From: Thiohalocapsa sp.
Lineage (GTDB): Bacteria; Pseudomonadota; Gammaproteobacteria; Chromatiales; Chromatiaceae
NCBI GenBank assembly: GCA_021736785.1
Contig: JAIPFF010000037.1
Location: 1 to 54,467 of the forward strand
Reading direction: 5' to 3'
Length of the DNA: 54,467 nt
Made by a program: the position numbers and the translations under genes. The notes beneath the pieces are model-generated. The model did no database searches. It had not been told where the DNA came from and was given only the letters and a program-made list of their open reading frames with translations. This document shows positions 3,865 to 39,826 of this stretch, in pieces (position 1 is the first letter of the stretch; each line of letters begins with the position of its first letter).

Positions 3865-5220
3865 TTAGTACGCGTCCCGACAGCTCAGCCGTTTCGGCCC
3901 GAGGTCCATATCCTTGACCAGCCAATCCATGTCCATTGCATTCGCTTTCGGGCAGAATTTCGCCGGATCACCCGAGTATTCGACACCGAATACGGCTTTG
4001 CCGGCCCGAATGAAGACCTCCAGCAGGCCGCACTCGTTGTACTGGAAGCACTGCTCGTTCAGCGCCCAGTCGAACCAGGGTTCGAGCTCCGCGGCCTGCT
4101 CGACGTTGTTCTTCAGGCCAACCGACAGCGCGCGGGCGTGGGCCGCTTCGGCGAGCCAGCGATTGTAGGCAAGCTGATGCTCGGCGCGCAGGGGAAAGCC
4201 CGTGTTGTTGCTGTAGCCATCGACGTTGTCGGGCTCGACACCGTCGCAGCCTTTCGAGCGGGCCAAGTCGAGACGCGCCTCCATGATCGGCCCGAGTAGA
4301 TCGATACGGCGAATATCGAGCCACTGCTCTCCGGGCCAACCGTTGCTGCGGCCCTTGACGGCGGCCGGGAAGCGGTCCGCGTCGGGACGCCAATTCTCCC
4401 AGCTTCCCGCGCTGAAATAGCAGACGACGACGCGGCCCGCGGCATGCAAGTCGGCGATGGTGGCCGCGGAGACGTCGTTCAGATCGATATTGTACATATC
4501 GACGTCGAAGCCGGTGTCGATGCGGCCGGTCAACTGCCATTGCCAGGAAGTGCCGGGTGCCGGCTGCCAGACCTGCCCGGGTACGACGGGCGGTTCGGTC
4601 GGTGGATTGTCCGGCTGGTTATTCGGCGGATCGGTCGGCGGATCGGTCGGCGGCTGAGGCACTCGCGGCGAACCGTCACCGTCCATGGAGGCAACCAGCT
4701 TCAGGTAGTCCATTTGGCTGGCATCGTAGCTGCTGTCGGTGACATAACGCAGGTGCAGCTTGCGGGCGCCGTCCACGTAGTCGCGCGGATCGCCGGGAAC
4801 GAAGAAACGCGGCGCCGCCCAGACCCAACTGTCGGCGATACGGTTGTCGCCGAGCGTCACCCAACGGTTGTCGGCCACGTTGCGCAAGCGCCAACGCCAG
4901 CGCTGCTGGTCCCGCTCGGGTCCGCGATAGTTGACGACGAGAGTCAGCGCGTCGATCGCGTCGGCATTCAGCCCATCGGGCAACCGGAACGAAAAATCGC
5001 CGCGATATCCGCCGTCGTCGGGATAAAGCTCGAGATATTTGTACCAGTTGTCATCGGACCCGGACTGATCCTTGGTTGCCAAGACAGACAGCGATTGCCC
5101 GCCGTTTCTTCCGTCGCGCTCTGCGAGCGCTACCGGATGGAGATCCAGCGCCTGCACGGGCAGCGCAATAAGTGCCGGCAGCGCATAAGCCGCCAGCCGG
5201 ACATGTCGAACATAAGACAT
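3865..5220 (-). CDS. Secreted GH114 endo-alpha-1,4-polygalactosaminidase with N-terminal accessory domain
   Basis: The product is 451 residues. ATG 5220 is preferred over the longer frame from 5310 because it opens directly on a signal peptide (MSYVRHVRLAAYALPALIAL, cleavage near VQA-LD). Residues about 25-195 form a beta-rich accessory region with many Trp and Tyr, possibly carbohydrate binding. A Pro/Thr/Asn-rich linker (PPTDPPTDPPNNQPDNPP) follows. The C-terminal half is a GH114 barrel with the family signatures VVCYFSAGSWENWRPD, GCDGVEPDNVDGY (acidic catalytic region), SVGLKNN and ALNEQCFQYNECG. GH114 enzymes cleave alpha-1,4-linked galactosamine polymers, which matches the GalNAc/GalN-rich Pel polymer. 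The gene is divergent from a second GH114-like gene and sits beside the Pel-like operon, so it probably acts on that polymer outside the cell. The family call is firm; the substrate is inferred. Confidence 0.88.
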   Translation of the reverse strand: MSYVRHVRLAAYALPALIALPVQALDLHPVALAERDGRNGGQSLSVLATKDQSGSDDNWYKYLELYPDDGGYRGDFSFRLPDGLNADAIDALTLVVNYRGPERDQQRWRWRLRNVADNRWVTLGDNRIADSWVWAAPRFFVPGDPRDYVDGARKLHLRYVTDSSYDASQMDYLKLVASMDGDGSPRVPQPPTDPPTDPPNNQPDNPPTEPPVVPGQVWQPAPGTSWQWQLTGRIDTGFDVDMYNIDLNDVSAATIADLHAAGRVVVCYFSAGSWENWRPDADRFPAAVKGRSNGWPGEQWLDIRRIDLLGPIMEARLDLARSKGCDGVEPDNVDGYSNNTGFPLRAEHQLAYNRWLAEAAHARALSVGLKNNVEQAAELEPWFDWALNEQCFQYNECGLLEVFIRAGKAVFGVEYSGDPAKFCPKANAMDMDWLVKDMDLGPKRLSCRDAY

Positions 5221-5800
5221 GGAGTACCCCCGGTACTTTGTACGATGCTTCCTCGCATGGTGAAGGTCGGCCGGCGCTCGCCCCGGACTGCGGCGGATGC
5301 GGCGCCCCACTGCTCGTGGCCAGGCCGCTTATCTGCCGCGCCGGCGCCCGGCGCCGATCATCTCGCCGAGCGCGCGAAAGAGCGCAGTCGGCCGACGCAG
5401 TATACGGGAAATCCCTTATTAGGGAATACCCGTACAGCTACTTTCGCGGAAGCACTGCATCCGGGCGTGACACGCGCGCGGCATCGCATCATCGCTTCAG
5501 ATGCTCGAAGCCCGCTGGCGCCGGACGCCGGAACCATCGCCGCAGCCCGTGTCAGTCGCTCGCCGACGGGCCGCGAGAAGCCGGCTCCCTTGTTTGCTTC
5601 CGTTGTAGCGCCCCCGAGACCAGCGAAACGTGCCGATCGTCACACTCCCGAACGCGGTTATCGGGAGACACTCAATCGCATCCATCGGTGTTATGGTGCG
5701 GCGTTATCGTGTCGATGAAGCTTCGCCGGCGGTCCCTGTGCCGCGCGCACTGTCCGCGCGCCCCCGCCGGCGCATCGTTTCGCGTTTTGGTTGGTTAGGC
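5221..5800. other. Divergent intergenic region between two GH114-type genes
   Basis: About 580 bases separate the two divergently transcribed hydrolase genes. The region should contain both promoters. It holds the inverted repeat annotated at 5403-5434. In-frame codons continue upstream of 5801 (ATG at 5692, another possible start at 5630), but the encoded residues look non-coding and precede an obvious signal peptide. Confidence 0.5.
5403..5434. promoter_or_regulatory. Imperfect palindrome, candidate operator
   Basis: Two 13-base arms, TACGGGAAATCCC and GGGAATACCCGTA, are separated by TTATTA. The reverse complement of the right arm is TACGGGTATTCCC, so 11 of 13 positions pair. The local sequence is AT-richer than its surroundings, lies between divergent promoters and has no T-tract, so an operator for a dimeric regulator fits better than a terminator. 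No regulator is assigned. Confidence 0.45.
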
Positions 5801-7075
5801 GTGAAAATTTCCGAACGGACCGCCCTCGGGGCGATTTGGGTAGCGGTCATGCTGGCAGGCGTTGCAGACTCATCGGCGCAGAGCAAGCCGGAGGATGCGC
5901 CGGCAAGCGTGAACGTACAGCACACCGAGGCGTCGGGCTCCTACAGCCCATCGCCGCGATCCGGCGATCCCGTGGGAGCCCCCGCGGAGAAAGAGAACGG
6001 CGAGCTGCCGGCGACGGCGGCTTGGCGCGGCTTCGGCGTGCAGTACTGGGGTGATACCTATACACCTGCGGAACTGGCCAAAGCGCCCCATTCGCGGCTG
6101 ATCATCGAGCCTTCGCGGCTCGGCGCCGACATCTCGCGCACATGCCGCGAGGAGCAGTTCACCCGCGACGAGATCCGCCTGATAAGCCGCGACGGCACGC
6201 GGCCGGTTGTCGGCTATCTGAACGTCGGAGAGCTGGCGCGGTACCGCGATTATTGGCGCTCGGAAACCGGCGGCGCGTGCGGCAAAGGCGCGCTACCCGC
6301 TTGGAACAAGAGCGGGCAAGGCGAGCCGGGCGCCCCCGAGACGGCCGCTTGGTATGGCGCGCCATACGGCGCGGAGGAGCTGTTGTCCGCCTTCTGGACG
6401 GACGAATGGCAACAGATTCTGCGCGGGCGTGTCGACGACCTGCTGCGAAACGGCTTCGACGGCGTCTTTCTCGACGACATCCTGCACTATTACCATTGGG
6501 GCACGGACGCGCGTCTGCGTGAAGCGTCCGCCAAGCTCGACGGACCGGCGGACATAGGCGCTATGGCACGCGCCATGATGCGTGTTGTCATCGATATCGC
6601 CGGCTACGCGCGTGGCGGGGCGCCGAGCGCCGACCCGGACTTCCAAGTCATCGTCAACGGCGCACCCTATATCGGTTGGGACGCATCGGCCGGCAAGGCG
6701 TCGCGAGACACCGAAATCGAAGCGCTCTACGGCGACTACCTCGACAGTATCGACGCCATCCTCGTCGAAAATGCGCTGAGTCGAGAGAACATTGCAAGCA
6801 TCGCGGAAGTGCTGCGCAAGGAATACCTGCGGCGCGGCAAGCCGGTGCTGAGCGTCGACTATTGGTCCGCCGCCGAGGCGCCGGCGGATTTCGACCGTTT
6901 CCGTGAGCGGATCGCCGCGGCGGCGAGGGAAAACAGGTTCGCCGCCTATGTAGCCGCGGACGGTCTGTTCGACCGGCTCTACCCTCCGCTGGAACCATCG
7001 CCGACCGAAACCGGCGCCGACCGCGACGACGAAGGTGCCGCCGACACCGGGTCCGCTAGCAACAGCTCGCGCTAG
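5801..7075 (+). CDS. Secreted GH114/TM1410-like glycoside hydrolase, counterpart of the PelA N-terminal hydrolase
   Basis: The product is 424 residues from GTG 5801, chosen because it gives a compact signal peptide (VKISERTALGAIWVAVMLAG, cleavage near SSAQS). A low-complexity linker of about 45 residues precedes the catalytic barrel. Barrel motifs seen are WRGFGVQYWGD, RPVVGYLNVGELARYRDYW, SAFWTDEWQQIL, GFDGVFLDDILHYY, FQVIVNG and AILVENALS. The Asp in VFLDD, the Asn in VIVNG and the Glu in ILVEN fall where GH114/TM1410 proteins carry active-site residues. In Pseudomonas PelA a related hydrolase domain is fused to the deacetylase. Here the PelA-like protein at 8553-10976 lacks it, so this gene may supply that function separately, although it faces the opposite way. 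Exact family (GH114 or GH166) and substrate are not settled. Confidence 0.78.
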   Translation: MKISERTALGAIWVAVMLAGVADSSAQSKPEDAPASVNVQHTEASGSYSPSPRSGDPVGAPAEKENGELPATAAWRGFGVQYWGDTYTPAELAKAPHSRLIIEPSRLGADISRTCREEQFTRDEIRLISRDGTRPVVGYLNVGELARYRDYWRSETGGACGKGALPAWNKSGQGEPGAPETAAWYGAPYGAEELLSAFWTDEWQQILRGRVDDLLRNGFDGVFLDDILHYYHWGTDARLREASAKLDGPADIGAMARAMMRVVIDIAGYARGGAPSADPDFQVIVNGAPYIGWDASAGKASRDTEIEALYGDYLDSIDAILVENALSRENIASIAEVLRKEYLRRGKPVLSVDYWSAAEAPADFDRFRERIAAAARENRFAAYVAADGLFDRLYPPLEPSPTETGADRDDEGAADTGSASNSSR

Positions 7076-7112
7076 GAAAGCACGTCAAAACGAAGCAAAG
7101 CGGCACGCGCGT

Positions 7113-7147
7113 TTTCGCCTTTCGCCTTTCGCCTTTCGCCTTTCGCG
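7113..7147. repeat. Heptamer tandem repeat TTTCGCC
   Basis: TTTCGCC occurs four times in direct succession from 7113, followed by a fifth copy with one mismatch. It lies between the convergent hydrolase gene (ends 7075) and TPR gene (ends 7272). A seven-base unit here cannot affect a reading frame. It is a potential slippage site or marker of strain variation. Confidence 0.8.
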
Positions 7148-7271
7148 CCGATTTGCGGCTGGCAAGGCCAGCAATACGGTTGCTGCCCAGCCGATCGCCC
7201 CGCGCGAGCGCCGCGGGGTCTGCGGCAATCGCCGGCGCCCTTCGCGACGAGTGCAAAGACTTTTTTTCAGG

Positions 7272-8540
7272 TCAGGCGTTCGATTCCCGAAGTAAGGATT
7301 TTGCGATCTGCAGACGCAGTGCGGGTGGCTGCAGGCGGCTCGTAAGCTCGGCGATGCGGGCCCTCTGCCACGGCTCCAAACCGATGCGGGCGCTGGCGAT
7401 GAGCAGGTAGCGGGCGGCGATGCTGTGCCGGCTCAGATCCAGGGCCAGTTCGGCAGCGAACAGGGGATCACTCGCGAGCACCCGGGGCGTCGCATGCGCC
7501 AAAACGCCGCCGAGGGCTGCCCGACCGAAGCGCCGGTAGGACCCTTTGATGACGCCGAGAATGAAGTCCGGTGTGAAAGTCTCGTCCCCGTTAAGCCGCA
7601 TCAGCGCCAAGGGGACAGCGTAGTCGTTCAGCTGCCGGGCATAGGACAGCAGCGCCGCTTGAGCGTCCGCATCGATGCGGTGACGCTCTCCGAGCCACTC
7701 GGCCAGCAGCGATCGCGCCCGCGCCCCGTAGCCTGCACCTGCGAAGGCACCGATGACGACATGGGCCTTGTCGCGATCGGCCTCGAGGCAGACCACGGAC
7801 AGCGCCTCGGCGGCGTTCACCTCGCCGCGGCGCAGGAGTGCCTCGGTCACCGTCCTCAGGCTGCCGGCATCGCCTTCGGCGATGAACCAGGCAGCGGCCG
7901 TAGCGGCAGCCTCGGCAGAGCGCCCGCTGCCGATCAGCAGCTCGGCCAACTGTCCGCGCTCATGCGTCCGGCGCGCGGCGGGCAGCTCCGAGCGCGCGCG
8001 CAGCAGCACCTCCATCGCGGCCGGCTCGCCGCGCGTTCGCAGCAGTTCCAACAGCCGCTGCGCCAGCCGCGGCGGGAGCGCGAAGGGCTCGACCGAGTCG
8101 AGCAGCCGCCGCTCGTCTTCGACGCGCCCGAGCAGGCGATAGGCAGCGGCGAGCTCACCCATGCGCCGCGGTGTCGGGTCGAGGGCGTAGGCCTGCGCCA
8201 AATGGCCGACCGCGGTCGGCAGATCCCCGAGCTCGCGGGCGACCGTCGCCAAGCGCTCCTGTGCCAAAACGGCATGCGGTTGCAATTCGGCAAGGCTCAG
8301 AAGGCTTTCGCGCGCCGCGGCGATGTCCGCGTTTTCCAAAGACAGCTCCGCACGCTTCATCAGCAGGTTGGGGTTGCGATCACCGGCGGCATAGACACGG
8401 TCGAGCTCGGCCAGCGCCTCCTGCGCCGGCATGGTGCTCAGCGCGAGCTCCAATTTTTCCGCTGGCGGCGGCGACAGCATGACCACCGCGACCAGCGACA
8501 GCAAACAGAGGATGATGACCTGCAGCAGATAGCGCGACAT
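7272..8540 (-). CDS. Membrane-anchored TPR protein resembling the N-terminal half of PelB
   Basis: The product is 422 residues with a clear ribosome site (GGAGAG) before ATG 8540. One N-terminal membrane segment (YLLQVIILCLLSLVAVVML) is followed by an all-helical, Ala/Leu/Arg-rich region of TPR-like repeats (for example LPTAVGHLAQAYALDP). PelB of Pseudomonas has an inner-membrane anchor, a TPR scaffold and a C-terminal outer-membrane beta-barrel of several hundred residues, about 1190 in total. This protein stops after the TPR part and shows no beta-barrel pattern. It is the last gene of the operon, 12 bases after the PelA-like gene. A periplasmic scaffold role binding the PelA-like protein is inferred. 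Confidence 0.68.
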   Translation of the reverse strand: MSRYLLQVIILCLLSLVAVVMLSPPPAEKLELALSTMPAQEALAELDRVYAAGDRNPNLLMKRAELSLENADIAAARESLLSLAELQPHAVLAQERLATVARELGDLPTAVGHLAQAYALDPTPRRMGELAAAYRLLGRVEDERRLLDSVEPFALPPRLAQRLLELLRTRGEPAAMEVLLRARSELPAARRTHERGQLAELLIGSGRSAEAAATAAAWFIAEGDAGSLRTVTEALLRRGEVNAAEALSVVCLEADRDKAHVVIGAFAGAGYGARARSLLAEWLGERHRIDADAQAALLSYARQLNDYAVPLALMRLNGDETFTPDFILGVIKGSYRRFGRAALGGVLAHATPRVLASDPLFAAELALDLSRHSIAARYLLIASARIGLEPWQRARIAELTSRLQPPALRLQIAKSLLRESNA

Positions 8541-8552
8541 GAGCCTCTCCCT

Positions 8553-10976
8553 TTATCGGCACGCGGACAGTTGAACGCGGACTGCGCGGCGGTCGAGCGC
8601 CGGTAGCGCCAGCGACAGCCGATGATCCTCACCGGCGAGCGCGTCATCCCAGTAGAACCGCTTGTCCGCGCCTTCGGCGGCATCACCGAACATTTCCACG
8701 CGATAGCTACCGGGCGCGGGTACCTGCCACAGCATCTCGCCGACTCCGTGCCCATGGACCTCGAAGCGCGCGCTGCAGGCGTCCGCCTCGAGCCCGCTGA
8801 TGTGCCAGCGTGCATGATCGAGCAGAAATCCCGCGAGGTGCTGCTCGGCGCCTTCCGCGTCACTCGCCGCCCGCAGCGCGACAACCGGGCTTTCCGCCGC
8901 CGGATCCAGCGCCACGTAGAGCGAACCGTTCGCCGAGCGCCGGCCCAGGACACCGCTGCAGCGGCCCGGGTCGAGGTCGAGTCGGCCCGCGGCCGTGTCG
9001 AAGCGCAATGTCTGCAGCGCGCCGCGGTTGTCGACACGCCATTGCAGGGGACCGATGCGAAACAGGCGCACGCTGAAGAACCCTTCGACGGTTCGCGCGT
9101 AATCCGCGGCGGGCACGGGGGCCAACTCCGCCGATCGGGCCTCCTCCAACTGGGTGCGCACCGCGTTCAAGGAGCCATAGCGCAGGGCGGAATAGGCGGT
9201 GAAGCCGATTTGCAGAGGCTTGAGCCGGCGCGGACGCTCAGTGGCCTCGGCCACTTGCCCGAGCCGCAGCAGGCCGTGGATCGGCGCCGTCCAGTAGTTG
9301 GTGAACGCCGCATCACCCTGCAATGCATCGTAGATTTGTCGCTGCTCGCCCACCTGCGCGGACAGCGCGCTCAGATTCGTCACCGACGGCGCGGCCGAGT
9401 CGTACACCCCGCCCTGCCCGCCCAACGCGGTCGCGCCCGACGCCCGGGCTTGCGCCAGCGCCGCTTCGAACACCTGCGCATCGCCGCCCCAAGAGATGAG
9501 CTCCACGGGCTCATCGTTACCGGCCAGCGCCGCCACCTCCCGCAGCGAACCGGCGATTTCGGATTCCAGAGCGAAGGGCTCGCCGACATAGCGGCGCAGC
9601 GCCGTCCCTCGCTCCTTGTTCAGCCGCCCTTTGTCCTTCAGGAAGACCTCGGAGAGGTTGGAGAAGGCGGCCGGCACCAAGCCGCGCTCGCGGATGGGCG
9701 CCGGATTGACGAAGCGCTCCATGGCAGCCATTTCCTCTGCGCGGCTGTAGCGCTCGAAGAAGCTCCAGCGCAGGGGCATGGTCCGGGTGCGCGACGCGGG
9801 ACTCACGTGCGGCAGTCTCAACGCGGCCGCCGCAATGTCGCGCCCCTCGCGGGCGAAAAGTCCGCCCAGTACCGGATCGAAATCCCCGGTGACGAGCGAG
9901 AGTGTCAACGGCAGGTCCGGGAAGGGCTCGAGCAGATGTTCCAGCACAACGCTGCCGGCAAGACGCACCGCGTCGCCCGGGCGGTCCGTCGGCACCGGCG
10001 TTGTCCACCCCTCGCCATTGACAACGGCAAAAAAGAGCCTTCGCCCGTTGCGCGTCGTGGTGTCTGGGATCGGTCTGGCGCCGCCGCCGAGCGTGCGCTC
10101 GAAAAATGCGAACGGATTCAGTATCCACAGCGACGTTCGGGCATCGGCATCGTAGCGAAGCAGTGCCGATTCGTGCACAAAGGCGCCGGTCGACGACGTC
10201 ACGACCAAGTCGGTCCCGGTGCCGCCCGCTCCCTCCGGCTCGCTCAGGCGCAAATGGGTCACCGCATCCGCCCTGGCTTGGACCAACGGAAAGCGGGCGT
10301 CGGCGATCGCGAAGTCTTGCTCGAAGCCAAGCAGCGCCGGATCGCTCGCGCCAACACGTCCCCAGACACCGAAGTGGTGCGGCTGGGGCTGCATCGTGAC
10401 TCCGAGGCGCGCGAGAAACGCGTTTGCGGCCGGCCGCTTGAAGTCCACGCGGGCAAGCCCCGACTCGCCCAGCACCAGGAACCGCAGAGGCGGGTCTGTC
10501 GCCGACTGCCTCTCTACCGTCGCCGCCCATTCCACATAAGATCCGGAGTCCCTCACGGGGGCGTCGAACCAAGTCAATACCGCGGCATAGTCCGGTTCCA
10601 GCAACTGCGGCGGCAGGCCGCCGGACAGATCGTGGTAAACGACATGAAAACCCAAGTGATTCAGCACCATTTCGGCAAACCGGTGCAGACGTGTCCAGCG
10701 CACCTTGGCCTCGCGGGAGCCATCGAAAAGCGCCAGTACCAGCCGCGGCTCGGGCACGCCATCGGCGGAGGGCGAGCCATCGGCGGAGGGCCCCGAGGCC
10801 TCCGCCGTTCCGGCCACCGCCAGCATGAGCAAGAGCATCAGCGCTTGCACGACGGAGCGCCCGGCGGACCGACGCCGGGCGGGCGCACATCCGCGGCCGC
10901 GCCGGCGCGTGCCGTCATGCCGCTTTGGGTGGACGTCAGCCGAGGTTCTTAAGCGTGTAGGCGGGTCGCTGCTCAT
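8553..10976 (-). CDS. pelA: PelA-like protein lacking the hydrolase domain, with degenerate deacetylase motifs
   Basis: The product is 807 residues from ATG 10976, overlapping the end of pelG by 41 bases. A basic n-region and signal segment (SVVQALMLLLMLAVAGTAEA) send it to the periplasm. Order: Rossmann/amidotransferase-like domain (about 55-300), deacetylase-like domain (about 300-520), PelA-type region with NYWTAPIHG and RPRRLKPLQIGFTAYSA, and a C-terminal beta-rich domain. The N-terminal GH166-type hydrolase of Pseudomonas PelA is absent. In PelA the metal site uses HIDGDG and ASHTYSHPF; the aligned segments here read AVVNGEGW and ASRTRTMPLRW, so both Asp and both His ligands are replaced. 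Deacetylase activity is therefore unlikely. Homology to PelA is clear from the C-terminal motifs and operon position. The motif comparison is from memory of the family, not a computed alignment. Confidence 0.75.
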   Translation of the reverse strand: MSSDPPTRLRTSADVHPKRHDGTRRRGRGCAPARRRSAGRSVVQALMLLLMLAVAGTAEASGPSADGSPSADGVPEPRLVLALFDGSREAKVRWTRLHRFAEMVLNHLGFHVVYHDLSGGLPPQLLEPDYAAVLTWFDAPVRDSGSYVEWAATVERQSATDPPLRFLVLGESGLARVDFKRPAANAFLARLGVTMQPQPHHFGVWGRVGASDPALLGFEQDFAIADARFPLVQARADAVTHLRLSEPEGAGGTGTDLVVTSSTGAFVHESALLRYDADARTSLWILNPFAFFERTLGGGARPIPDTTTRNGRRLFFAVVNGEGWTTPVPTDRPGDAVRLAGSVVLEHLLEPFPDLPLTLSLVTGDFDPVLGGLFAREGRDIAAAALRLPHVSPASRTRTMPLRWSFFERYSRAEEMAAMERFVNPAPIRERGLVPAAFSNLSEVFLKDKGRLNKERGTALRRYVGEPFALESEIAGSLREVAALAGNDEPVELISWGGDAQVFEAALAQARASGATALGGQGGVYDSAAPSVTNLSALSAQVGEQRQIYDALQGDAAFTNYWTAPIHGLLRLGQVAEATERPRRLKPLQIGFTAYSALRYGSLNAVRTQLEEARSAELAPVPAADYARTVEGFFSVRLFRIGPLQWRVDNRGALQTLRFDTAAGRLDLDPGRCSGVLGRRSANGSLYVALDPAAESPVVALRAASDAEGAEQHLAGFLLDHARWHISGLEADACSARFEVHGHGVGEMLWQVPAPGSYRVEMFGDAAEGADKRFYWDDALAGEDHRLSLALPALDRRAVRVQLSACR

Positions 10977-12405
10977 AGAGTGCGGCGTTCTCCCTGATAA
11001 ACACGATGAACAGAAAACTGCGCAGCGAACCGTAGGCGAAGACGAAGGACACCAGGCACGAGACCAGCGACGCGACGAAGACCCCGTAGGCGGATACACC
11101 GGTCCACCAATAGGCCAAGATGCCGGCGACCAAGTTGCTGGCGCCGAAGATCACCTGCAGCTGAAAGAACCTGCGCGCGCGGTTGCAAAGCATGATGACG
11201 AAGCAGTTGGCGAAGAAGAACGACTGCAGCAGCGCGGCGACCAATCCGATCCGCATCCATGCGAGCTGGCGCATCTCCATGGACAGCAGCATCACGATGT
11301 GCGCGGACAGCTCGACGAATAGCGCCGAGAACGCCGCCTGAACGAACAGGATCCGGAAGATCGCCGTCAGGATGTCGTCGAACAGCCTGTCCGCTTCGGT
11401 CGCCATCGCGCGATAAGTCGGGCGGGCGCGAAGCAGCTGCCAGAAGGCATCGATACGAGGCTCGGCCAGGCGCTCGTTGAGCAGGAAGATGGCCGCAAAG
11501 GTCGGTATGATCGATAGGTGGGCGATGAACATGGCGCTGTCGTAGGGCGCAAAATGGGGAAACCCGGACGCCGAGCGCATACCCACGGGGCCGAACCAGA
11601 ACACCAGTTTATCCACCCACACCGCGCACACCGCCAAGACGATGCCGGCGAACAACAGCACCTGCTCGCGAATCTCGGCGACGATCATCCCCGCGGCCTC
11701 GAGCAGGCGGGCGAGATCGAGCTCGGAGCTGCGGATCAGGTGCGAGCTCATCAAGAAATGGGCGAACAGCAGGCCAACCGAGAAAGACCAGAGCACCGGC
11801 TCGACACCGCTGTTGCCGCGGGCGACGAAAACGGCGCCGCCGATCGCGATCAACATGCCGAGCACGAAGGAGCGGATCAGGCGCCAGAAATCGCGCAACG
11901 CCGACATCACCGCAAAATCGGTCCACAGCAGCGATGCGGAGACCGACAAAACGACGAACGCTACCCCCAACTGGAGCGAAAGCCCGCCGAGCAGCACCGC
12001 GACCGTGGCCGTCAACAACTGGGTCGCACCGGCGCCCAGCATCAACGACACCGCATAGAGCTCGGCCACGCGCCGGCCGCCGTGCTCGTTGACGGAATTG
12101 CGGATCAACCGGGCCGTCAGCGTGCCGATCGGCGCGGTTGTCAGCAGCGACAGTCCAAAGGCATAGATCACCGCCAGGCGCAGGTCTTCGATGGCGCGAT
12201 GCCCGAGCACGGGTGTCAGCGCGGCCGAGATCACCGCCAGCGCGATGACCGACACGACCCAGGGACCGACAGCGACGATGGCTCCGGCCAGGAACGAGAT
12301 CACCGGCGACAGTACGGGGCCGGCCGTCAACCAGCGCAAGGCACGCGCGGAGCCGCGCAGCGCGGCCTCGGCGTCGGGCCATTTCAGCTCGCCGCTCGCG
12401 CTCAT
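10936..12405 (-). CDS. pelG: PelG, polytopic membrane component of Pel polymerisation/export
   Basis: The product is 489 residues with about a dozen hydrophobic segments spread over its length, for example VLSPVISFLAGAIVAVGPWV and FVASLVSCLVSFVFAYGSL. Family features include PWVVSVIALAVIS near the N-terminus, the charged turn ARLIRNSVNEHGGRR, and the Phe-rich LLQSFFFANCFVIML. PelG is a MOP/Wzx-type flippase relative that works with the PelF glycosyltransferase and the PelD/PelE scaffold to make and move the polymer across the inner membrane. The start overlaps the pelF stop as ATGA, so the two are translationally coupled. Length is normal for the family. Confidence 0.93.
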   Translation of the reverse strand: MSASGELKWPDAEAALRGSARALRWLTAGPVLSPVISFLAGAIVAVGPWVVSVIALAVISAALTPVLGHRAIEDLRLAVIYAFGLSLLTTAPIGTLTARLIRNSVNEHGGRRVAELYAVSLMLGAGATQLLTATVAVLLGGLSLQLGVAFVVLSVSASLLWTDFAVMSALRDFWRLIRSFVLGMLIAIGGAVFVARGNSGVEPVLWSFSVGLLFAHFLMSSHLIRSSELDLARLLEAAGMIVAEIREQVLLFAGIVLAVCAVWVDKLVFWFGPVGMRSASGFPHFAPYDSAMFIAHLSIIPTFAAIFLLNERLAEPRIDAFWQLLRARPTYRAMATEADRLFDDILTAIFRILFVQAAFSALFVELSAHIVMLLSMEMRQLAWMRIGLVAALLQSFFFANCFVIMLCNRARRFFQLQVIFGASNLVAGILAYWWTGVSAYGVFVASLVSCLVSFVFAYGSLRSFLFIVFIRENAALYEQRPAYTLKNLG

Positions 12406-13940
12406 GCCGCCGTCAACATATCGTAGAGGGCCGAATAGCGCGCCGCCGACGCCTCGGAAGTGAAGTAGACCTGCACCCTGCGGCGCAGCGTCTCGCCGCA
12501 GCTTCGGCGCAGCACCTCGTCCGTGAGCAACGCGGCGACGGCCTCGGCCGTCGCCTCCGGCGCCATCAGCGGGACGATGCGCCCGCCCGGGCCCAGAGTC
12601 GGCGACTCATCGGGCAGCCCCTCGATGATCTCCCGGCAGGAGCCGACGTCGGTCGCGACACAGGGGATACCGGCCGCGCCGGCCTCCAGCAGCACCAGCG
12701 GCTGCGCCTCGCTGATGCTCGTGAGCAGCATCACGTCGACCCGCGGCAGATACTCGATCACGTTGACCTTGCCGGCGAATTCCACGGTACCGCCCAGCCC
12801 GAGCTGATCGACGAGCTGCACGCACTCGGCGTAATAGCCGGGATCCTCGTCGGTGGGTCCCAGCAGCAGCGCACGCAAATCCGGGATCGAGCGGCGCAGA
12901 TGTCCCGCCGCCGCGATAAAGGTCTTGATGTCCTTGATCGGCACGATGCGCCCGATCAACGCCACGGTGGGCGGGTGATCCGGGTCGGGCTCGATTGCCG
13001 CGTAGCGGTCGAAATGAATGCCGTTGGGGATGACCTCAAGTCGCTCTCGGGGGGCACCGAGCGCGGTCTGAAAGGCCTGATTGCGGCCGTAAAGCGTCGT
13101 GATTCGACTGCAACTGCGATAACAGACCTTCGCGTAGGACTCGAACGCAGTGATCCAGAAGTCGCGGATATCCAGCCGCTCGTCGCGCCGGGAGAGACTG
13201 GCGCCGATGGTATCGGTGATCCATTCGGCCATGAGCAAGTCGATACGGCGCTCGTTGGTATAGATCCCGTGCTCGGTCACCGCGGCGGGCCTTCCGGTTT
13301 CGATGGATGCGCGCGCGGCAAGCAGGCCGGCATAGCCGGTCGAGATCGTGTGATAGGCGCCGGCCACGGGCAAGGGTGCAGTCAAAATGCTGAAAAGCCC
13401 GCCGACCAGCGTTCGCCATGCCCAGAAAAAATCCGGGAACGAGGCCTGCGGCGTCAGCCTGTGGTAGCAGGCCACCATCACATTCCAGGCGAAGCGGCTG
13501 CTGAGCAACTGATCGAGGGAGACGGGCGCGGCCGCTGTCCGGTCCGGCTCCGAAAAGGCCGTTGCCGACGCACCCGGGTCACCATGCAGCAACACGCCGA
13601 GCGCCCCGAGGGCTTGCGGATCTCCTTCCGTCAAAATACGGCAGATGAGATCACTGACTTCGCTCGAGGAGAGATCCGGCTCGAGCAGGCGGCGGGGGCG
13701 GCGCAGGCTCGGACTCAGCACGAGGTTGCGAAACAGCACCACCGCCGGCGGCAGCGTGTAGACCGGCGCCGGCGGGTTGTCGTTGGCGACGATGGCGACA
13801 ACACCGAAGCGGCGCTCGGGTTGCTGCTTGATCAGCCAATCGAGCCAGGAGGACACTCCCCCGGCGACATAGGGATAGCAGCCTTCGACGATCAGACACA
13901 CATCCACGGCCTGCTCGTCATCGTGCACATCAACCGACAT
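12402..13940 (-). CDS. pelF: PelF, GT4-family glycosyltransferase of Pel synthesis
   Basis: The product is 512 residues, normal length, with GAGGAG before ATG 13940. The N-terminus has the PelF signature DVCLIVEGCYPYVAGGVSSW. The C-terminal nucleotide-sugar domain has VALIGRIVPIKDIKTFI, VMLLTSISEAQPLVLLEAG with the EX7E catalytic pattern, and GIPCVATDVGSCREIIEG. PelF is a cytosolic transferase that polymerises UDP-N-acetylhexosamine (UDP-GalNAc/GlcNAc) on the PelDEG membrane complex. It overlaps pelE upstream by 11 bases and pelG downstream by four. No changed catalytic motif is visible, so the synthase looks intact although other parts of the system are altered. Confidence 0.95.
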   Translation of the reverse strand: MSVDVHDDEQAVDVCLIVEGCYPYVAGGVSSWLDWLIKQQPERRFGVVAIVANDNPPAPVYTLPPAVVLFRNLVLSPSLRRPRRLLEPDLSSSEVSDLICRILTEGDPQALGALGVLLHGDPGASATAFSEPDRTAAAPVSLDQLLSSRFAWNVMVACYHRLTPQASFPDFFWAWRTLVGGLFSILTAPLPVAGAYHTISTGYAGLLAARASIETGRPAAVTEHGIYTNERRIDLLMAEWITDTIGASLSRRDERLDIRDFWITAFESYAKVCYRSCSRITTLYGRNQAFQTALGAPRERLEVIPNGIHFDRYAAIEPDPDHPPTVALIGRIVPIKDIKTFIAAAGHLRRSIPDLRALLLGPTDEDPGYYAECVQLVDQLGLGGTVEFAGKVNVIEYLPRVDVMLLTSISEAQPLVLLEAGAAGIPCVATDVGSCREIIEGLPDESPTLGPGGRIVPLMAPEATAEAVAALLTDEVLRRSCGETLRRRVQVYFTSEASAARYSALYDMLTAA

Positions 13941-14913
13941 GGCATTCTCCTCGGGTCGACGACCTCGGCGGCAGCGCGCGCCCGGCCGCCCCCTTGCGCC
14001 ACGACCGGCTCGGCATCAATGGGACGGCCGAGCCTCTGTCGCGCGTTGCAAGCGCCGGCGCGCCGGCCGACGGCACCGCAGAAGCCGCCGCCGCACTAGC
14101 GCGGTGCGTATCGAGGCTGTCCGCGACCCGCCGCAGCTCGCTCGCCGTGTCGTCGTCGAGGAAGCCGGACGCCGCAAGTCGACGGCAGCGCTCGGAGAGG
14201 TCGCGGGAACCGACTGTCGTCGATTCGCCGCGCCGCGCCGCCGCGAGGATCCGCTGCGCGTCTGCCGCCGAGCGCTCGCGCAGCTTCGCGAACACGGCCG
14301 CGGCCTGAACACGCACCGCGGGCGTGGGCGAGCGCAGTGCCGCGGCCAGGGCCGATAGCATTTCCGGCTCGTAGCGCTGCGAGATCATCGCAATGGCAAA
14401 CTGTTGATCCGCAAGCTCGTCGCTGTCGATCGCATCCCGAAGCGTACGGCGGTTGGAGGTATCGCGTCTGGGCCGTCGATCGGCGAGGATCTGTGCATAG
14501 AGGGCATCGGCGGCGCTGGTATCGGCAATCGGCGCATCTCCGGCGCCGCTCGGGCCAGCGCCCGCACCGGCGACGGCCCGTGCCGCCGCCGCGGTGGCAG
14601 GCATCAGCAGACGGATAAAGGCGAATGGACCCAGCAGGCACATCATCGCCGCACGAAACACGACCGCGCCGCTGAGGCCGGCACCGATACCCCGCAAAGC
14701 GAACAGGTAGAACGCCACGATCGCGAAATGCGCGATGAGCAAAAGCCCCGGTGCGGCCGCCTGCGTCACCCACCCATAGCCAAGCAGCAATTCGCTGAAC
14801 AGAGCCAGCGCTTCGACCGAGCGCGTCAGCCCCTGGCGAAGCAGGCCCGGCACCAGGACCGGCAGGGCCGTTGCCCGCCTGTCGAAGCTTCGCGCCAGTG
14901 ACGAGGCGATCAT
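13930..14913 (-). CDS. pelE: PelE-like membrane protein with HEAT-like helical domain
   Basis: The product is 327 residues. ATG 14913 overlaps the pelD stop as ATGA and is preferred over ATG 14934. After a short basic start, hydrophobic segments (APGLLLIAHFAIVAFYLFAL and AVVFRAAMMCLLGPFAFIRL) anchor it in the inner membrane. A flexible Ala/Gly-rich stretch then leads to a cytosolic helical domain with HEAT/TPR-like repeats (AIAMISQRYEPEMLSALAAA, then TPAVRVQAAAVFAKLRERS). The last 55 residues are low-complexity and basic. PelE links PelD to the PelF/PelG machinery. Sequence identity in this family is low, so the call depends on gene order and topology as much as on motifs. Confidence 0.82.
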   Translation of the reverse strand: MIASSLARSFDRRATALPVLVPGLLRQGLTRSVEALALFSELLLGYGWVTQAAAPGLLLIAHFAIVAFYLFALRGIGAGLSGAVVFRAAMMCLLGPFAFIRLLMPATAAAARAVAGAGAGPSGAGDAPIADTSAADALYAQILADRRPRRDTSNRRTLRDAIDSDELADQQFAIAMISQRYEPEMLSALAAALRSPTPAVRVQAAAVFAKLRERSAADAQRILAAARRGESTTVGSRDLSERCRRLAASGFLDDDTASELRRVADSLDTHRASAAAASAVPSAGAPALATRDRGSAVPLMPSRSWRKGAAGRALPPRSSTRGECHVG

Positions 14914-15947
14914 CGCCCGCCGTCCCCGCTGCATCGCGCCAGCGTAGCCACATCGTCTTGCTTCATGCCGGCGAGTGCCGCCGCGAGCGCATCCGTCAGC
15001 ACGCCGACGGCACCGTCGCCGATTTGCTCGCGGCGCCCGAAGGGAATGGCAAGGATGCCGATCGGCGCCTCTTCGTCGGGCCCGCGCACGGCAATCGCGG
15101 CCACGCCATCGGCGAACTCCGGCGCACGCTTGACCGTGACCGGGCCTACCTCGGCCGCGGCCCGACGCACGATGGGGTGATCCCCGGGCAGCACTTCGCC
15201 GGACGCACCGGCGGCGCGGATATCGCCGACCTCGCGATAATCGCCGCGTGGGCAGCGCAGGAAGAGGCGCACGGTGACCGGTCCGAGCAGATCTCGAGCG
15301 CAGCGCTGCAGTTCCTCCGCCAGCCTTGCGGCTGTCGCTTCGCGTAGCGCGGTGGTCGGCATCTCCGGTGCGCCACCGAGATCGCTTGGCGGCGGCCTGT
15401 CGGCCTGCCGTGCCGGCGCGGGAGCTTCGGTCGCGATCGCCACCTCCAATTGCCATAGCTCCTCGTCGAGCCGGCGGATTTCGTCGGCGAAAGCGGTATT
15501 CATCCGGCGCAGTCGCTCGATCTCCCGCGCGCGCTCGATCTCGGTCCGGCGCTGGTTCTGGCGGAATAGGCCGATCAGTACGGCCGCCAACAGCCACTGG
15601 ATCGGCAAGCGCACCATCTCCAGGTAATAGGCCGAAATGTCCAGGCCCGGCGGGCGCAGTGGCCAATCCATGAACAGCGAGGCCAGGATCGCGGTGACGA
15701 CGCCCCCGTAGACTCCGTACTGCAGCGACACCAGCATCACCGGCAGCCAGAATGGATGCAGGTCGAGCGCGGCATAGGTTCCGCGCCCCAGAAACAGCGT
15801 TTCGATCGCCATCAGGCCGACCAGCAACGCCATGCCCTCGGTCACCGCGCGAATAAAGGAAAGAAACGAGGAGTCGCTGCCCGTATCCGTCCCGCCCCCG
15901 GCCGGCAGCGCCGCCTCCCGGGTGGGGTTCGCCAATGATCGATGCAT
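14910..15947 (-). CDS. pelD: PelD lacking the GGDEF (c-di-GMP-binding) domain
   Basis: The product is 345 residues, against about 455 for Pseudomonas PelD. The N-terminal membrane region is typical, with about four segments (IRAVTEGMALLVGLMAIETL, FWLPVMLVSLQYGVYGGVV, IQWLLAAVLIGLF). A coiled coil follows (RRTEIERAREIERLRRMN), then a GAF-like domain from about residue 200 (LGPVTVRLFLRCPRGDYREV to APIGILAIPFGRREQIGD). The protein ends about 30 residues later, so the degenerate GGDEF domain with the RxxD inhibitory site that binds c-di-GMP is missing. Its stop overlaps the pelE start and no GGDEF-like sequence follows in another frame, so this does not look like a local frameshift. Control by c-di-GMP through PelD is unlikely here. 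Confidence 0.87.
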   Translation of the reverse strand: MHRSLANPTREAALPAGGGTDTGSDSSFLSFIRAVTEGMALLVGLMAIETLFLGRGTYAALDLHPFWLPVMLVSLQYGVYGGVVTAILASLFMDWPLRPPGLDISAYYLEMVRLPIQWLLAAVLIGLFRQNQRRTEIERAREIERLRRMNTAFADEIRRLDEELWQLEVAIATEAPAPARQADRPPPSDLGGAPEMPTTALREATAARLAEELQRCARDLLGPVTVRLFLRCPRGDYREVGDIRAAGASGEVLPGDHPIVRRAAAEVGPVTVKRAPEFADGVAAIAVRGPDEEAPIGILAIPFGRREQIGDGAVGVLTDALAAALAGMKQDDVATLARCSGDGGR

Positions 15948-15950
15948 CGT

Positions 15951-17474
15951 CTAGCGCCCCCCGCGGGAGTCGATGGACGCATCGGCGAGCTGATCCCGCG
16001 TTCGTGCGCGGGCGCCCACTTCGAGAATGTCTCCCGGCAGTAGCGTCGTATCCAGGCTCGCGTCGATATCGATCAAGCCTTCGGCGGACTTGCGCACCAC
16101 GACCAATTCCAGCGGCACCTCGGCGTCGGCAGTCGGGCGTTTCGTCAGCGCGTCGATCTGCATGGCGACGGCGCCAAGCTGGCCTTCGATTGCGTTCAGC
16201 TCCGTGACGCGGTCCCGAAGCTCTCCGGCCAGGGTGCTGCGATCCGCCGATGCCTGCGCGGGCAGGTCGCGCCGGGCAGCGTCGAGGGCGTCTTCGGCGG
16301 TAGCCAGGTCGAGGCTGACCTGGAACTGGGCGCGCTCGAGATTCATCTGGCTCAGCTCTTCAGCGTGCAGGCGATAGAGCGGCGCCAGCCCCTGCGCATT
16401 CAGGGCCTGAAGCTCGTCGAGGCGCCGGCGCTTCTGCTTGATCTGGTCTTGCGTAACCGCTTGCTGGTTCTTCAGCAGTTCCACCCGCGACGACAGCTCC
16501 TCGAGGTGGGAGCTTGCGTTGGCGCGTGCCAACCCGCGCGCGTCGACCGCGGCCCGCAGCGCGGCCAGCTCGCTGTCGACTCGCCGCTGGCCGAGTACCG
16601 ATATCATTGTCCGCAGCCGTTCGCGGTCGATGCCGATCTCGGTTTTGCCGGCCATCACCGCCTCGATACGCCGAATCTCCAACTCCAGGCTGAGCACGAG
16701 CCGGTCGAGCTCGGCGCGGCGCGCCGCCAGGTTGGTCAGTGTCTGGGCGCTGGCCGCGGCACCGGCGGCCTCGGCACCGGCCAGCGCCAGGGCATGGCGG
16801 ACAGTCATGTCGGGCAGCGTGGCGTAAGCCCCCGGCGAGCGCACCGCTCCGCTGACCAGCACGGGATGGCGCGTCTCGAAACCGGCCGTGACCGACGCCG
16901 GCGTGCCGAGCGCCTCGCGGTAGCGGTTTGCTACCTGTCTCTCGACGCAGGCGAGCGACTGCCCGCGCACCGGCACCCGGGCCAACAGCGGGATGGATAC
17001 TTCACCCGCATCATCCACCTCGTAGGTTCCCGACAGGTCCAGGCGCTCGAACACCAGGGCACTGAGATCCAGGCCCCGGTCCGTGCCTTTGGCGCCGTCG
17101 GCCGGCTGCTCGAAGAAGCGCAGGCGAAGCTTGTCCCCGGCCACGACCGACGCCGCACTCGCGGGCTCCCCCGGGGCACAATCGCCGCCGGACGCCTTCG
17201 CTACCGAGCGGCGCGTCGGCGATAAGTCCGCGATTTCCGCCAGCACACGCCGGCCGGCGCCGTCGCCGTCCTGGCCCCCGAACCTGCGCTCTTCGAAGGG
17301 CAGGATCTTCAATGTCTGCTTGAGCTCGCTCCACCAAGTCTCACCCGAGCCGGCCTCCGCGAACCGCGACTCCGCAAGGGAGCCGCCGGTAGCCACGCGG
17401 TCGTCGCTGACTTTCCAAGCGAGAATCGAAACGAGTGCTGCAAGAAAGACTGCAATAGCAAAGAGGATACGCAT
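15951..17474 (-). CDS. ExoF-like polysaccharide export protein with long coiled coil
   Basis: The product is 507 residues and sits three bases upstream of pelD. A single N-terminal hydrophobic segment (ILFAIAVFLAALVSILAW) is a signal or anchor; there is no lipobox Cys. Residues about 110-240 match a polysaccharide-export (Wza/PES) domain followed by an SLBB-like segment (GDKLRLRFFEQ, GEVSIPLLARVPVRGQSL, HPVLVSGAVRSPGAYATLPD). About 245-430 form a long coiled coil rich in Glu, Arg and Leu. A last beta segment (IDASLDTTLLPGDILEVGAR) resembles the second export motif. The layout is that of ExoF-type periplasmic export proteins of Wzx/Wzy or synthase systems. It is not part of the Pseudomonas pel operon. 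Inferred role: periplasmic or outer-membrane passage of the polymer. Confidence 0.8.
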   Translation of the reverse strand: MRILFAIAVFLAALVSILAWKVSDDRVATGGSLAESRFAEAGSGETWWSELKQTLKILPFEERRFGGQDGDGAGRRVLAEIADLSPTRRSVAKASGGDCAPGEPASAASVVAGDKLRLRFFEQPADGAKGTDRGLDLSALVFERLDLSGTYEVDDAGEVSIPLLARVPVRGQSLACVERQVANRYREALGTPASVTAGFETRHPVLVSGAVRSPGAYATLPDMTVRHALALAGAEAAGAAASAQTLTNLAARRAELDRLVLSLELEIRRIEAVMAGKTEIGIDRERLRTMISVLGQRRVDSELAALRAAVDARGLARANASSHLEELSSRVELLKNQQAVTQDQIKQKRRRLDELQALNAQGLAPLYRLHAEELSQMNLERAQFQVSLDLATAEDALDAARRDLPAQASADRSTLAGELRDRVTELNAIEGQLGAVAMQIDALTKRPTADAEVPLELVVVRKSAEGLIDIDASLDTTLLPGDILEVGARARTRDQLADASIDSRGGR

Positions 17475-17749
17475 TGGATTGGTCCTTCCTTTCGGGGCGC
17501 GCCGACGAGCACAATCACGGCGATGTCGCTGCGCTCCCGGTCCACGGATCGTCGGCGCTGGGCTCGTCGGCCTCCGGATGGATTAAACGCTCCGCAGGCA
17601 GACTCGGGTCGCCGGCTGCAGCGATGCGCGCACCCGCACCAAGCAGCGATGGGCGGTCGATGTCTTGCCGCCGCGTCTCGTGGGTCGAGCCGGTCGCCGT
17701 CGGGCGCTCGGCCTCGATGTCTCGGGCGCAATACCGACGACAAGGAGCC
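17475..17749. other. Gap between epimerase-like gene and ExoF-like gene, no gene seen
   Basis: These 275 bases interrupt an otherwise tightly packed operon. I looked for a displaced C-terminal half of the epimerase in the other minus-strand frames and saw no HRREN or DSGG-type motif. Minus-strand frames here are Arg/Pro-rich and resemble nothing I recognise. Confidence 0.5.
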
Positions 17750-18592
17750 CTATTTCCAAACCATCCCACGCCGCTCCGCCACGCTCGACGCGCCGTCCGA
17801 GGCCGCCGCGCGGACATCGTGCCCGGGCTCGGCATCCGCACCGGCGGCGGGCTCGTCGAGTGCCGGCCATTCGCCCGCCAGCCATCGCCGGACGGCCTCG
17901 ACGATCCGCGCCGAAGCGCCTCCGCGGTCGAGTGGATCCGCGGACATCGCCAGCACCGAGATCAGTTCCCGGTCCGCCAGCGTCGCGGCCTCCGAGTCGG
18001 CATCGTGGATTGCTTGACTCGGCGGCGGCGGCTTGCGCGCCAAAAACGCCAGCGCATCGACGATGGTGTCTCCCGTCACCGCGATGCGCTCTGCGGGTAC
18101 GCCTTCGGACATCAGCGCGCGGCGTGCACGCTCGGTCGGCGCGAAGTGCGCGTGCGCAACGGCCGATGACAGGCAGTGGTTGATCCTTTCCGGATAACGG
18201 CCACCGGTGGCCTCCGCCTCCACGTCCGCATGGAGGCGGCCGACCGGTATCCCCGCGCGAAACGCGCTCAGCGCGGCACTCGAGACCGCCGGCGTCTCGC
18301 CCGAGTACAACAACATATCGGGCGAAAAACGCTGCAACGCTCCGTCTATGACCTCCATGACGGCGCCGGTGGAGCACACGGAGGCGTTCGCGCCTTGCTC
18401 CGGGTCCAATGTCATGTCGGGTTTGATGCCGAATAGCGACAGCACCGAATCGAGTTGCTCGGGCGTCCGCCCCATCGCGATCAGTGCCGTGTCGAAGCCG
18501 GAGGCGGCTTCGCCGAAACGCAGATATACCGGTGCTAGTTTGATGGCCTCGGCCCGCGTGTTGATGACAACCGCGATACGCTGATTTGCCAT
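17750..18592 (-). CDS. Truncated, degenerate WecB-like UDP-GlcNAc 2-epimerase homologue
   Basis: The product is 280 residues against about 370 for WecB. AGGAG sits six bases before ATG 18592, so it is probably translated. The N-terminal Rossmann half is recognisable but altered: NTRAEAIKLAPV for GTRPEAIKMAPV, YSGETPAVSS where the family has HGDTTT, and HADVEAEATGGRYPERINH where it has HVEAGLR followed by PEE.NR. FAPTERARRALMSEG and VTGDTIVDAL are conserved. The C-terminal half with the HRREN, HLNP and DSGGIQEE motifs is missing; only RELISVLAMSADPLDRGG may be a remnant. Both halves form the active site in WecB, so epimerase activity is unlikely. It is the first gene of the Pel-like operon and may now bind a nucleotide sugar or another Pel component, or be decaying. 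Confidence 0.72.
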   Translation of the reverse strand: MANQRIAVVINTRAEAIKLAPVYLRFGEAASGFDTALIAMGRTPEQLDSVLSLFGIKPDMTLDPEQGANASVCSTGAVMEVIDGALQRFSPDMLLYSGETPAVSSAALSAFRAGIPVGRLHADVEAEATGGRYPERINHCLSSAVAHAHFAPTERARRALMSEGVPAERIAVTGDTIVDALAFLARKPPPPSQAIHDADSEAATLADRELISVLAMSADPLDRGGASARIVEAVRRWLAGEWPALDEPAAGADAEPGHDVRAAASDGASSVAERRGMVWK

Positions 18593-34385: not shown

Positions 34386-37187
<2,802 letters not shown>

Positions 37188-37192
37188 CGCTG

Positions 37193-37519
37193 ATGGAAGG
37201 CCTGATATCGATCGCGGTCGGCGTCATGACCGCCTGCGGCGTCTACTTGCTTTTGCGCGCACGGACGTTTCCCGTCGTGCTCGGGCTAACGCTGCTGTCT
37301 TATGCCGTCAACCTGTTCTTGTTCGCAATGGGGCGGCTGACCATCGGCGCCCCCGCGATTATCGATCCGGAGCGAGACATCTATACCGACCCGCTGCCGC
37401 AAGCCCTGGTGCTGACGGCGATCGTCATCGGCTTCGGCATGACCGCTTTTGCCGTCGTGCTGGCGCTGCGCGCCAAGGCCGATCTGGGCAATGATCACGT
37501 AGACGGCAAAAAGCGATGA
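37193..37519 (+). CDS. mrpC: MrpC/MnhC antiporter subunit
   Basis: The product is 108 residues, with GGGGAGGAG just upstream of ATG 37193. Three membrane helices are NuoK-like: EGLISIAVGVMTACGVYLLL, TFPVVLGLTLLSYAVNLFLF and PLPQALVLTAIVIGFGMTAF. The motif DPLPQALVLTAIVI is characteristic of MrpC. It is a small structural subunit of the Mrp antiporter. Its stop overlaps the mrpD start as ATGA. Confidence 0.96.
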   Translation: MEGLISIAVGVMTACGVYLLLRARTFPVVLGLTLLSYAVNLFLFAMGRLTIGAPAIIDPERDIYTDPLPQALVLTAIVIGFGMTAFAVVLALRAKADLGNDHVDGKKR

Positions 37520-39533: not shown

Positions 39534-39826
39534 ACGATATGACCGTCTCCGGTTTCCTGCTGCCCGCCGCTCTGGCCATCGCCTTCTTGTTGGTCAGCGC
39601 CGCCTTGCTCATGTCCCTGGCCCGTCTGGTGCTGGGCCCGGACGAGCCGGACCGCATCCTGGCCTTGGATACCCTGTACGTCAATACGGTGGCGTTGCTG
39701 GTGCTGCTCGGCATGCAGTTGGGCAGCAACCTGTACTTCGAAGCGGCGCTGCTGATCGCCCTGTTCGGCTTCGTCGGCACGGTCGCGCTGGCGAAGTTCC
39801 TGACCCGCGGAGACATTATCGAATGA
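39530..39826 (+). CDS. mrpF: MrpF/MnhF antiporter subunit
   Basis: The product is 98 residues starting at GTG 39530. Three membrane helices are visible (LLPAALAIAFLLVSAALLMS, TLYVNTVALLVLLGMQLG, FEAALLIALFGFVGTVALAK). The conserved GPDEPDRILALDTLYVN loop identifies MrpF. Its stop overlaps the mrpG start as ATGA. Confidence 0.95.
   Translation: MNDMTVSGFLLPAALAIAFLLVSAALLMSLARLVLGPDEPDRILALDTLYVNTVALLVLLGMQLGSNLYFEAALLIALFGFVGTVALAKFLTRGDIIE

Follow-up and report, generated by a model that had tools for sequence, protein, structure and literature searches.

Deacetylation of Pel is reported to be needed both in Pseudomonas aeruginosa (PMC12022489) and in Bacillus cereus (PMC13254593), and PelA active sites are described as conserved across full-length homologues (PMC12022489). 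Because that survey required more than 85% coverage of the hydrolase-bearing protein (PMC12022489), split PelAs would fall outside it. Here we describe a Pel-like locus with such a split PelA on contig JAIPFF010000037.1 of a 5.2-Mb draft genome of Thiohalocapsa sp. (GCA_021736785.1); the entire contig, 54,467 bp, was analysed and is referred to below as the window. Its PelA-like protein appears to keep the PelA fold but to have lost the deacetylase site, and its synthase genes lie beside a gene for an outer-membrane polysaccharide export (OPX) protein.

Described systems share parts of this arrangement. With P. aeruginosa pelABCDEFG the window has in common PelF, PelG, the membrane parts of PelD and PelE, the PelA fold and a GH114-type hydrolase, but it shows no PelC in view, no PelB barrel and no GGDEF part in PelD; the PelA deacetylase site is lost, the hydrolase is a gene of its own and an OPX-like protein is added. 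The pelDEADAFG genes of B. cereus likewise specify a PelA without a hydrolase domain, the hydrolase and galE being separate flanking genes in bacilli (PMC7112168). Unlike the window, B. cereus has no outer membrane and no OPX protein, its PelD is reported to bind cyclic di-GMP (c-di-GMP; PMC7112168), and its PelADA is described as catalytically active, with the activity required (PMC13254593). Streptococcal Pel loci share a PelD without the GGDEF part (PMC7112168), but are Gram-positive and have no OPX protein. Rearrangement of pel operons is in itself not new, since a 2020 survey of Gram-negative operons reports rearranged pelA/pelB, cases of pelB fission and losses of genes; the available text of that survey makes no mention of an OPX gene or of loss of the PelA active site (PMC7112194). 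Class 3 OPX proteins (Myxococcus WzaX, WzaS and WzaB) and rhizobial export proteins resemble the window's protein in having a Poly_export and SLBB-like head and no Wza-type C-terminal helix, but the window's protein is joined to a Pel synthase core, has a long HlyD/LipC-like hairpin and is accompanied by no partner barrel in the scanned window frames. In open PubMed Central papers we found no description of a Pel variant of this type.

The destroyed deacetylase site is the most telling departure from canonical Pel, and it went unnoticed in a preliminary description of the locus made from the sequence alone. The PelA-like frame has no Pfam match at E ≤ 0.1 and is matched by the PelA crystal sequence 9cgy (Table 1). 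An AlphaFold2 (AF2) model of the protein (pLDDT 83.5, pTM 0.87) was aligned with 9cgy by Foldseek over 745 columns (TM 0.70, E = 3e-42). The active-site residues of PaPelA are given as H526, D528, D530, H600, H604 and H761, and alanine mutants of PtPelA at D517, D519, H589 and H593, equivalent to PaPelA D528, D530, H600 and H604, as having no detectable esterase activity (PMC12022489). Mapped through locus L058, the canonical columns H-D-D-H-H-H read V-N-E-R-M-T in the window, with N, E, R, M and T at the catalytic base, metal triad and acid (D528, D530, H600, H604 and H761); aligning the window PelA to 9cgy gave identical substitutions. Sequence and model together indicate that the PelA fold of the CE21 deacetylase is kept and that its site is lost.

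The same change recurs elsewhere. PelF relatives were drawn from plasmids and from one genome per species, the species scan comprising its best 80 loci, so frequencies cannot be read from this sample. With profiles built here we mapped 105 sources (the window's first 30 kb, L011–L094 and L125–L144), 18 of which encode an OPX/ExoF-like protein. PelA was matched in 64 rows, 11 of them cut or unreadable and left out of the count; L011 and L035 carry an OPX gene and have no PelA match, and hence stand outside it. The 16 readable OPX-bearing loci comprise 14 without either metal-binding histidine, and L037 and L083, which are intact. Among the readable loci without an OPX gene, D-D-H-H is kept in 36 of 37, five of these with Q for H526; the exception is L081. 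The stretch around the HxxxH motif is missing in L013, L023 and L024, and the last histidine (H761) is kept in L020, L025, L033 and L048 despite the loss of both metal-binding ones.

By parsimony on the PelF tree, the site changed at least four times; the simplest set of losses is one shared by the window and the Rhodobacterales, one in Methylobacterium, one in L048 and one in L033, whose sister L037 is intact. For the Methylobacterium pair L020/L029, the ratio dN/dS (omega) is 0.31 for PelA, 0.25 for PelF and 0.32 for ExoF, which indicates that PelA is still under selection despite its dead site. Other PelA values are 0.39 (L020/L025), 0.34 (L015/L016), 0.19 (L023/L024) and 0.48 (L033/L037); Sulfitobacter and Marivita pairs lie near or at saturation and hence give weak values, and an ExoF omega of 0.98 for L033/L037 is probably too high because the stop-to-stop frames carry out-of-frame 5' extensions. 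A role that a dead PelA may retain is suggested by B. cereus PelADA, whose N-terminal domain is reported to be a carbohydrate-binding module for oligomers, both acetylated and partly deacetylated (PMC13254593). Separately, five loci (L041, L043, L052, L056 and L080) have a PelB match immediately after GH114 and yielded no PelA, for which contig ends and sensitivity are possible causes.

The OPX protein of the window, here called ExoF, consists of an N-terminal helix, a Poly_export and SLBB-like head, a long alpha-hairpin and terminal strands. Its Poly_export domain scores above the Pfam cut-off and its SLBB domain below (PF10531, 23 bits against 27), with matching strands in the AF2 model (pLDDT 79.2, pTM 0.56). 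Profile matches include the class 3 OPX protein WzaB (9n9a, 1e-15), the membrane fusion protein LipC (5nen, 2.8e-13) and Wza (2j58, 1.9e-11), and Foldseek with the model returned Wza (8.5e-6), WzaB (9.4e-6) and LipC (TMt 0.78). The modelled hairpin, at about residues 243–444, resembles those of LipC and HlyD, and the head is Wza-like; Rhizobium export proteins match at about 25–27% identity. The model has no Wza-type C-terminal outer-membrane helix. By eye, the window protein has no lipobox or clear signal cleavage site, and signal peptides were seen in some relatives. We infer from sequence and model an OPX/adaptor chimera with a Wza-type head and an HlyD-type hairpin. A second 'OPX' match in L048 looks HlyD-like rather than OPX. 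Proteins of class 3, according to a survey that sorts OPX proteins into classes, have a separate barrel as their partner; among the flanking frames of 12 OPX-bearing relatives (60 in all, 20 scanned), there is one OprB-type porin, in L020.

The gene set recurs in two orders. The exoF gene lies directly upstream of pelD in ten loci, eight of them with a linked GH114–TPR–pelA block (TPR, tetratricopeptide repeat) or its counterpart. Eight Rhodobacterales loci (L012, L013, L015–L018, L023 and L024) read GH114 (+), TPR (-), pelA (-), then exoF, pelD, pelE, pelF and pelG (+); the records of L011 and L019 begin at exoF and pelF, respectively, and L011 has no GH114–TPR–pelA block in view. Seven others (L020, L025, L029, L033, L037, L048 and L083) have pelA, TPR, pelD–G and exoF, with GH114 downstream, an order that occurs in Methylobacterium, Aureimonas, a Hyphomicrobiaceae bin and Bosea. 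The window keeps the GH114/TPR convergence, with exoF–pelG and pelA–TPR in one direction and pelA–TPR–GH114 after pelG. The recurrence of ExoF-like, PelDEFG, PelA-like, TPR and GH114 genes in other lineages bears out part of the earlier proposal of one rewired Pel-like system, from which an epimerase as a component and a hydrolase as a loss have to be removed. The clusters of L011–L013 lie on replicons of 255–307 kb that PLSDB calls non-mobilizable. Outside the main clade, L035 (Microvirga) has an OPX-like gene at 6214–7524 (+) between a PelB-TPR match and a full-length pelD, with no PelA detected; this is perhaps a separate OPX acquisition.

In the window, a truncated wecB-like frame, exoF, pelD, pelE, pelF, pelG, pelA and the TPR gene follow one another on the minus strand (Table 1). 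The exoF-like gene stands 3 bp upstream of pelD, and pelD/pelE, pelE/pelF and pelF/pelG overlap by 4, 11 and 4 bp. From its first GTG, at 11099, pelA overlaps pelG by 164 bp, and its true start may be internal, at an ATG at 10976 or 10838; 12 bp separate pelA from the TPR gene. This spacing suggests that the cluster is co-transcribed. The wecB-like frame is 275 bp away from exoF. On the other side, one GH114 gene converges on the TPR gene and a second follows it. The frames of the preliminary description are all present where it placed them, and the core that it called intact in order and coupling is so, with PelF and PelG firm family calls.

Table 1. Genes of the Pel-like locus and adjoining frames in the window
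Feature	Position	Strand	Evidence
Second GH114 enzyme	3865..5310	-	PF03537 288.5 bits; N-terminal GH114-associated domain PF14741 133.6 bits; neighbour and possible member of the Pel system
Stand-alone GH114 hydrolase, corresponding to the hydrolase domain of PelA	5630..7075	+	PF03537 38.5 bits (cut-off 27)
TPR protein	7272..8540	-	422 aa, hydrophobic N-terminus; TPR_16 and TPR_2 below Pfam cut-off; matched by PelB-TPR profile
PelA-like pseudo-deacetylase	8553..11099	-	9cgy, E 2e-36; catalytic columns V N E R M T
PelG, inner-membrane Pel transporter	10936..12405	-	489 aa; PF16933 176.7 bits (cut-off 29)
PelF glycosyltransferase	12402..13940	-	512 aa; NF038011 419 bits (cut-off 100), positions 1–489 of 489
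PelE-like membrane protein	13930..14913	-	327 aa, ATG at 14913; PelE profile match; in Pfam, weak HEAT matches only
PelD-like protein	14910..15947	-	345 aa; membrane part and tail, maybe GAF-like; C-terminal GGDEF part of canonical PelD missing
ExoF-like OPX protein	15951..17474	-	507 aa; PF02563 33.9 bits (cut-off 28)
Truncated WecB-like N-terminal domain	17750..18592	-	TIGR00236 122 bits (cut-off 210), positions 2–212 of 366

The PelA-like protein had been described as lacking its hydrolase. Its frame indeed contains none, but this is not a loss: the GH114 enzyme is encoded as a separate gene beyond the interval of the preliminary description, as a separate gene also is in several other mapped loci, and its convergence with the TPR gene is also found in the Rhodobacterales. 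Two acidic columns, presumably the catalytic pair, are invariant in 51 of 51 GH114 matches that cover at least 70% of the profile. The genome has no PF03537 match other than the two window genes. Five Rhodobacterales loci, L012 (where it is annotated galE), L015, L016, L017 and L018, have an SDR epimerase gene upstream of GH114, and in L012 and L015 there is also a glmS or SIS-domain gene, which fits UDP-GalNAc supply and a GalNAc polymer. None of these sugar-precursor genes is among the scanned island genes, so the precursor enzymes of the window would have to lie elsewhere. In two Hyphomicrobium loci (L030 and L031), three GH114 genes stand in tandem at about 12.9–16.8 kb.

An epimerase was also part of the earlier picture, in the form of the WecB-like frame. 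We reject it as a precursor enzyme: it is truncated to about half length, scores well below the family cut-off and has no relative in the other 104 mapped sources. It is the only TIGR00236 match in its own genome and is probably not a functional component. An epimerase-like domain, presumed inactive, is present in some Gram-positive PelDs (PMC7112168), and by likeness the truncated frame may have a non-catalytic role; nothing here supports one.

PelF carries the stretch EAQPLVLLE (E-x7-E) in the alignment. PelD is short, as had been noted, covering positions 5–150 of a 411-position profile built here. The end of that profile is reached in 1 of the 18 OPX-bearing loci (L035), in none of ten same-clade members without or unjudged for an OPX gene, and in 59 of the 68 other loci; a short PelD is thus the rule in the OPX group but also occurs outside it. 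The RxxD motif, the presumed c-di-GMP site, is kept in 51 of 96 PelD rows and falls in a gap in the window. LuxR-type regulators adjoin three OPX-type loci (L015:13233–14093, L018:13168–14049 and L029:15251–16027) and perhaps substitute for c-di-GMP control through PelD. A second complete pel elsewhere in the genome, which would have spoken against a single rewired system, was sought and rejected: there is one PelF over the cut-off and one PelA-like protein, and GH114 occurs in the window only.

The TPR protein appears from its profile match to be related to the TPR part of PelB, without the barrel; sub-threshold TPR matches and the absence of any barrel family from the scanned window frames agree with the view of it as a barrel-less PelB. 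PelC had likewise been noted as absent, and it was matched neither in the first 30 kb of the window nor in any of the 17 further OPX-bearing loci. One Azospirillum PelC query gave a single weak match elsewhere in the genome (E = 8e-5).

The cluster was probably acquired: the genome has one PelF over the cut-off, PelF is found at E ≤ 1e-60 in none of 34 other genomes of the host family, and synteny within the genus stops near 19.2 kb. A PelF tree of 51 rows places the window as sister to a group of ten Rhodobacterales rows (support 100/100), and the 28-row clade around it holds 17 of the 18 OPX loci, with five rows judged to be without an OPX gene and six unjudgeable. Among same-class genomes, 1 of 21 has PelF at the same threshold; in a sample of the phylum it is present in 31 of 398 genomes, 13 other same-class ones scoring 653–857 bits against 418 for the window. 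In 48 genomes of a further class, probably Magnetococcia because two members have PelFs identical to named Magnetococcales records, the PelF matches listed all came from genomes of that phylum sample. Eight of nine genus relatives could be compared, the ninth having no match to the anchor gene; all eight align from about 19.24 kb rightwards and none to the left. In five of the eight, a block of 1–3.8 kb beside the same anchor gene is shared at 84–90% identity and is absent from the window. Comparison of the left part of the window with the genus relatives by tblastx gave scattered short matches only. The plain reading is an island that spans 19 kb or more, has alphaproteobacterial affinity and extends on the left past the end of the contig. 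The host probably belongs to another class, the Gammaproteobacteria; no 16S rRNA was found in its genome. To the right of the island are Mrp/Mnh-type Na+/H+ antiporter genes (34386–40227, +), and more than 30 kb from the Pel genes a pectinacetylesterase-like protein is encoded (49761–51077, +; PF03283, 44 bits).

We give about an even chance to the proposal that the locus is an acquired alphaproteobacterial-type Pel variant, which makes a Pel-like polymer without PelA deacetylation and exports it through the OPX/adaptor chimera. PelF, with PelG, PelE and PelD, would make and translocate an alpha-GalNAc-type polymer without c-di-GMP control through PelD, and PelA would act as a non-enzymatic scaffold for binding and hand-over. 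The TPR protein and a ring of the chimera would then move the polymer, still bearing its acetyl groups and roughly neutral, through the periplasm to an outer-membrane pore, and GH114 would trim or release it. The polymer would be of the GalNAc type and not deacetylated by PelA; the polymer of the canonical Pel system is partially deacetylated alpha-1,4-GalNAc. The PelB barrel is reported to have a negatively charged interior that provides a path for cationic Pel (PMC12141448). On the proposed reading, loss of deacetylation and loss of a PelBC exporter suited to a cationic polymer would belong together. A wider claim is more tentative, and we place it somewhat short of an even chance: that a lineage of Pel-like systems abandoned PelA deacetylation, most simply four times independently, and uses an OPX/HlyD-hairpin chimera to export a neutral GalNAc polymer.

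Several observations weigh against this proposal. The link between OPX gene and dead site is not strict: L037 and L083 have both an OPX gene and a preserved PelA site, and in L081, which has no OPX gene, the motif is missing. An independent-pairs test on the tree, with two informative pairs, was not significant. Pseudovibrio and Hyphomicrobium members of the same clade have no OPX gene, and no exporter was found in their scanned flanking frames. No outer-membrane barrel or pore is present among the 35 window frames scanned with Pfam, and no galE is in view among the scanned island genes. The absence of PelC from the 18 OPX-bearing sources is a weak sign, as among the 87 other sources, many of them cut, PelC was found in just 30. 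In L033, whose PelA is dead, the RTX protein encoded beside exoF weakly matches Polysacc_deac_1 (E = 7.6e-5).

This last case also speaks for the idea that deacetylation has been outsourced to another enzyme, secreted or encoded elsewhere, so that the product is still Pel-like and cationic. The protein in question, from Aureimonas endophytica, is an RTX/serralysin-C protein of 1099 aa (L033:14579–17875, +), located between exoF and GH114, and is a possible secreted replacement deacetylase. We consider outsourcing unlikely in general, as no N-deacetylase family was found in the 35 window frames, the search of the genome having been aimed at canonical PelA only, or, L033 apart, in the 20 scanned flanking frames of the OPX-bearing relatives.

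A dead deacetylase, a short PelD, a truncated wecB, the absence of an exporter pore in view and probable acquisition beside a conserved host gene could instead mark a non-functional relic decaying after transfer. That the main frames are open, that the genes overlap or nearly touch, that the PelF stretch and the GH114 residues are kept, and that a like change is found in several lineages, with a PelA omega of about 0.3 in Methylobacterium, make decay improbable in our judgement. Similarly low is the probability we assign to the ExoF-like gene being a mere neighbour from another polysaccharide pathway, with a cryptic PelB/PelC-like pore elsewhere exporting the polymer: descriptions of OPX proteins concern Wzx/Wzy and ABC pathways (PMC9603273) and there is the weak PelC-like match elsewhere in the genome, but in 17 loci of a single PelF clade, with two gene orders, the OPX gene adjoins pelD or pelG, and in the window the gap is only 3 bp.

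If the proposed export of a non-deacetylated polymer through the chimera is correct, an OPX protein would serve a synthase-dependent polymer, a crossover that is not described in the open PubMed Central literature searched. The introduction of a 2022 survey of OPX proteins states that no crossover between proteins of OPX-type and synthase-dependent pathways had been identified, and the survey itself reports PgaA-like barrels paired with OPX proteins (PMC9603273). Loci of the type found in the window would show the opposite pairing, with the OPX protein joined to a synthase core. Natural Pel loci without the deacetylase site offer a test of whether polymer synthesis needs that site, and of its role in export and in the charge of the matrix.

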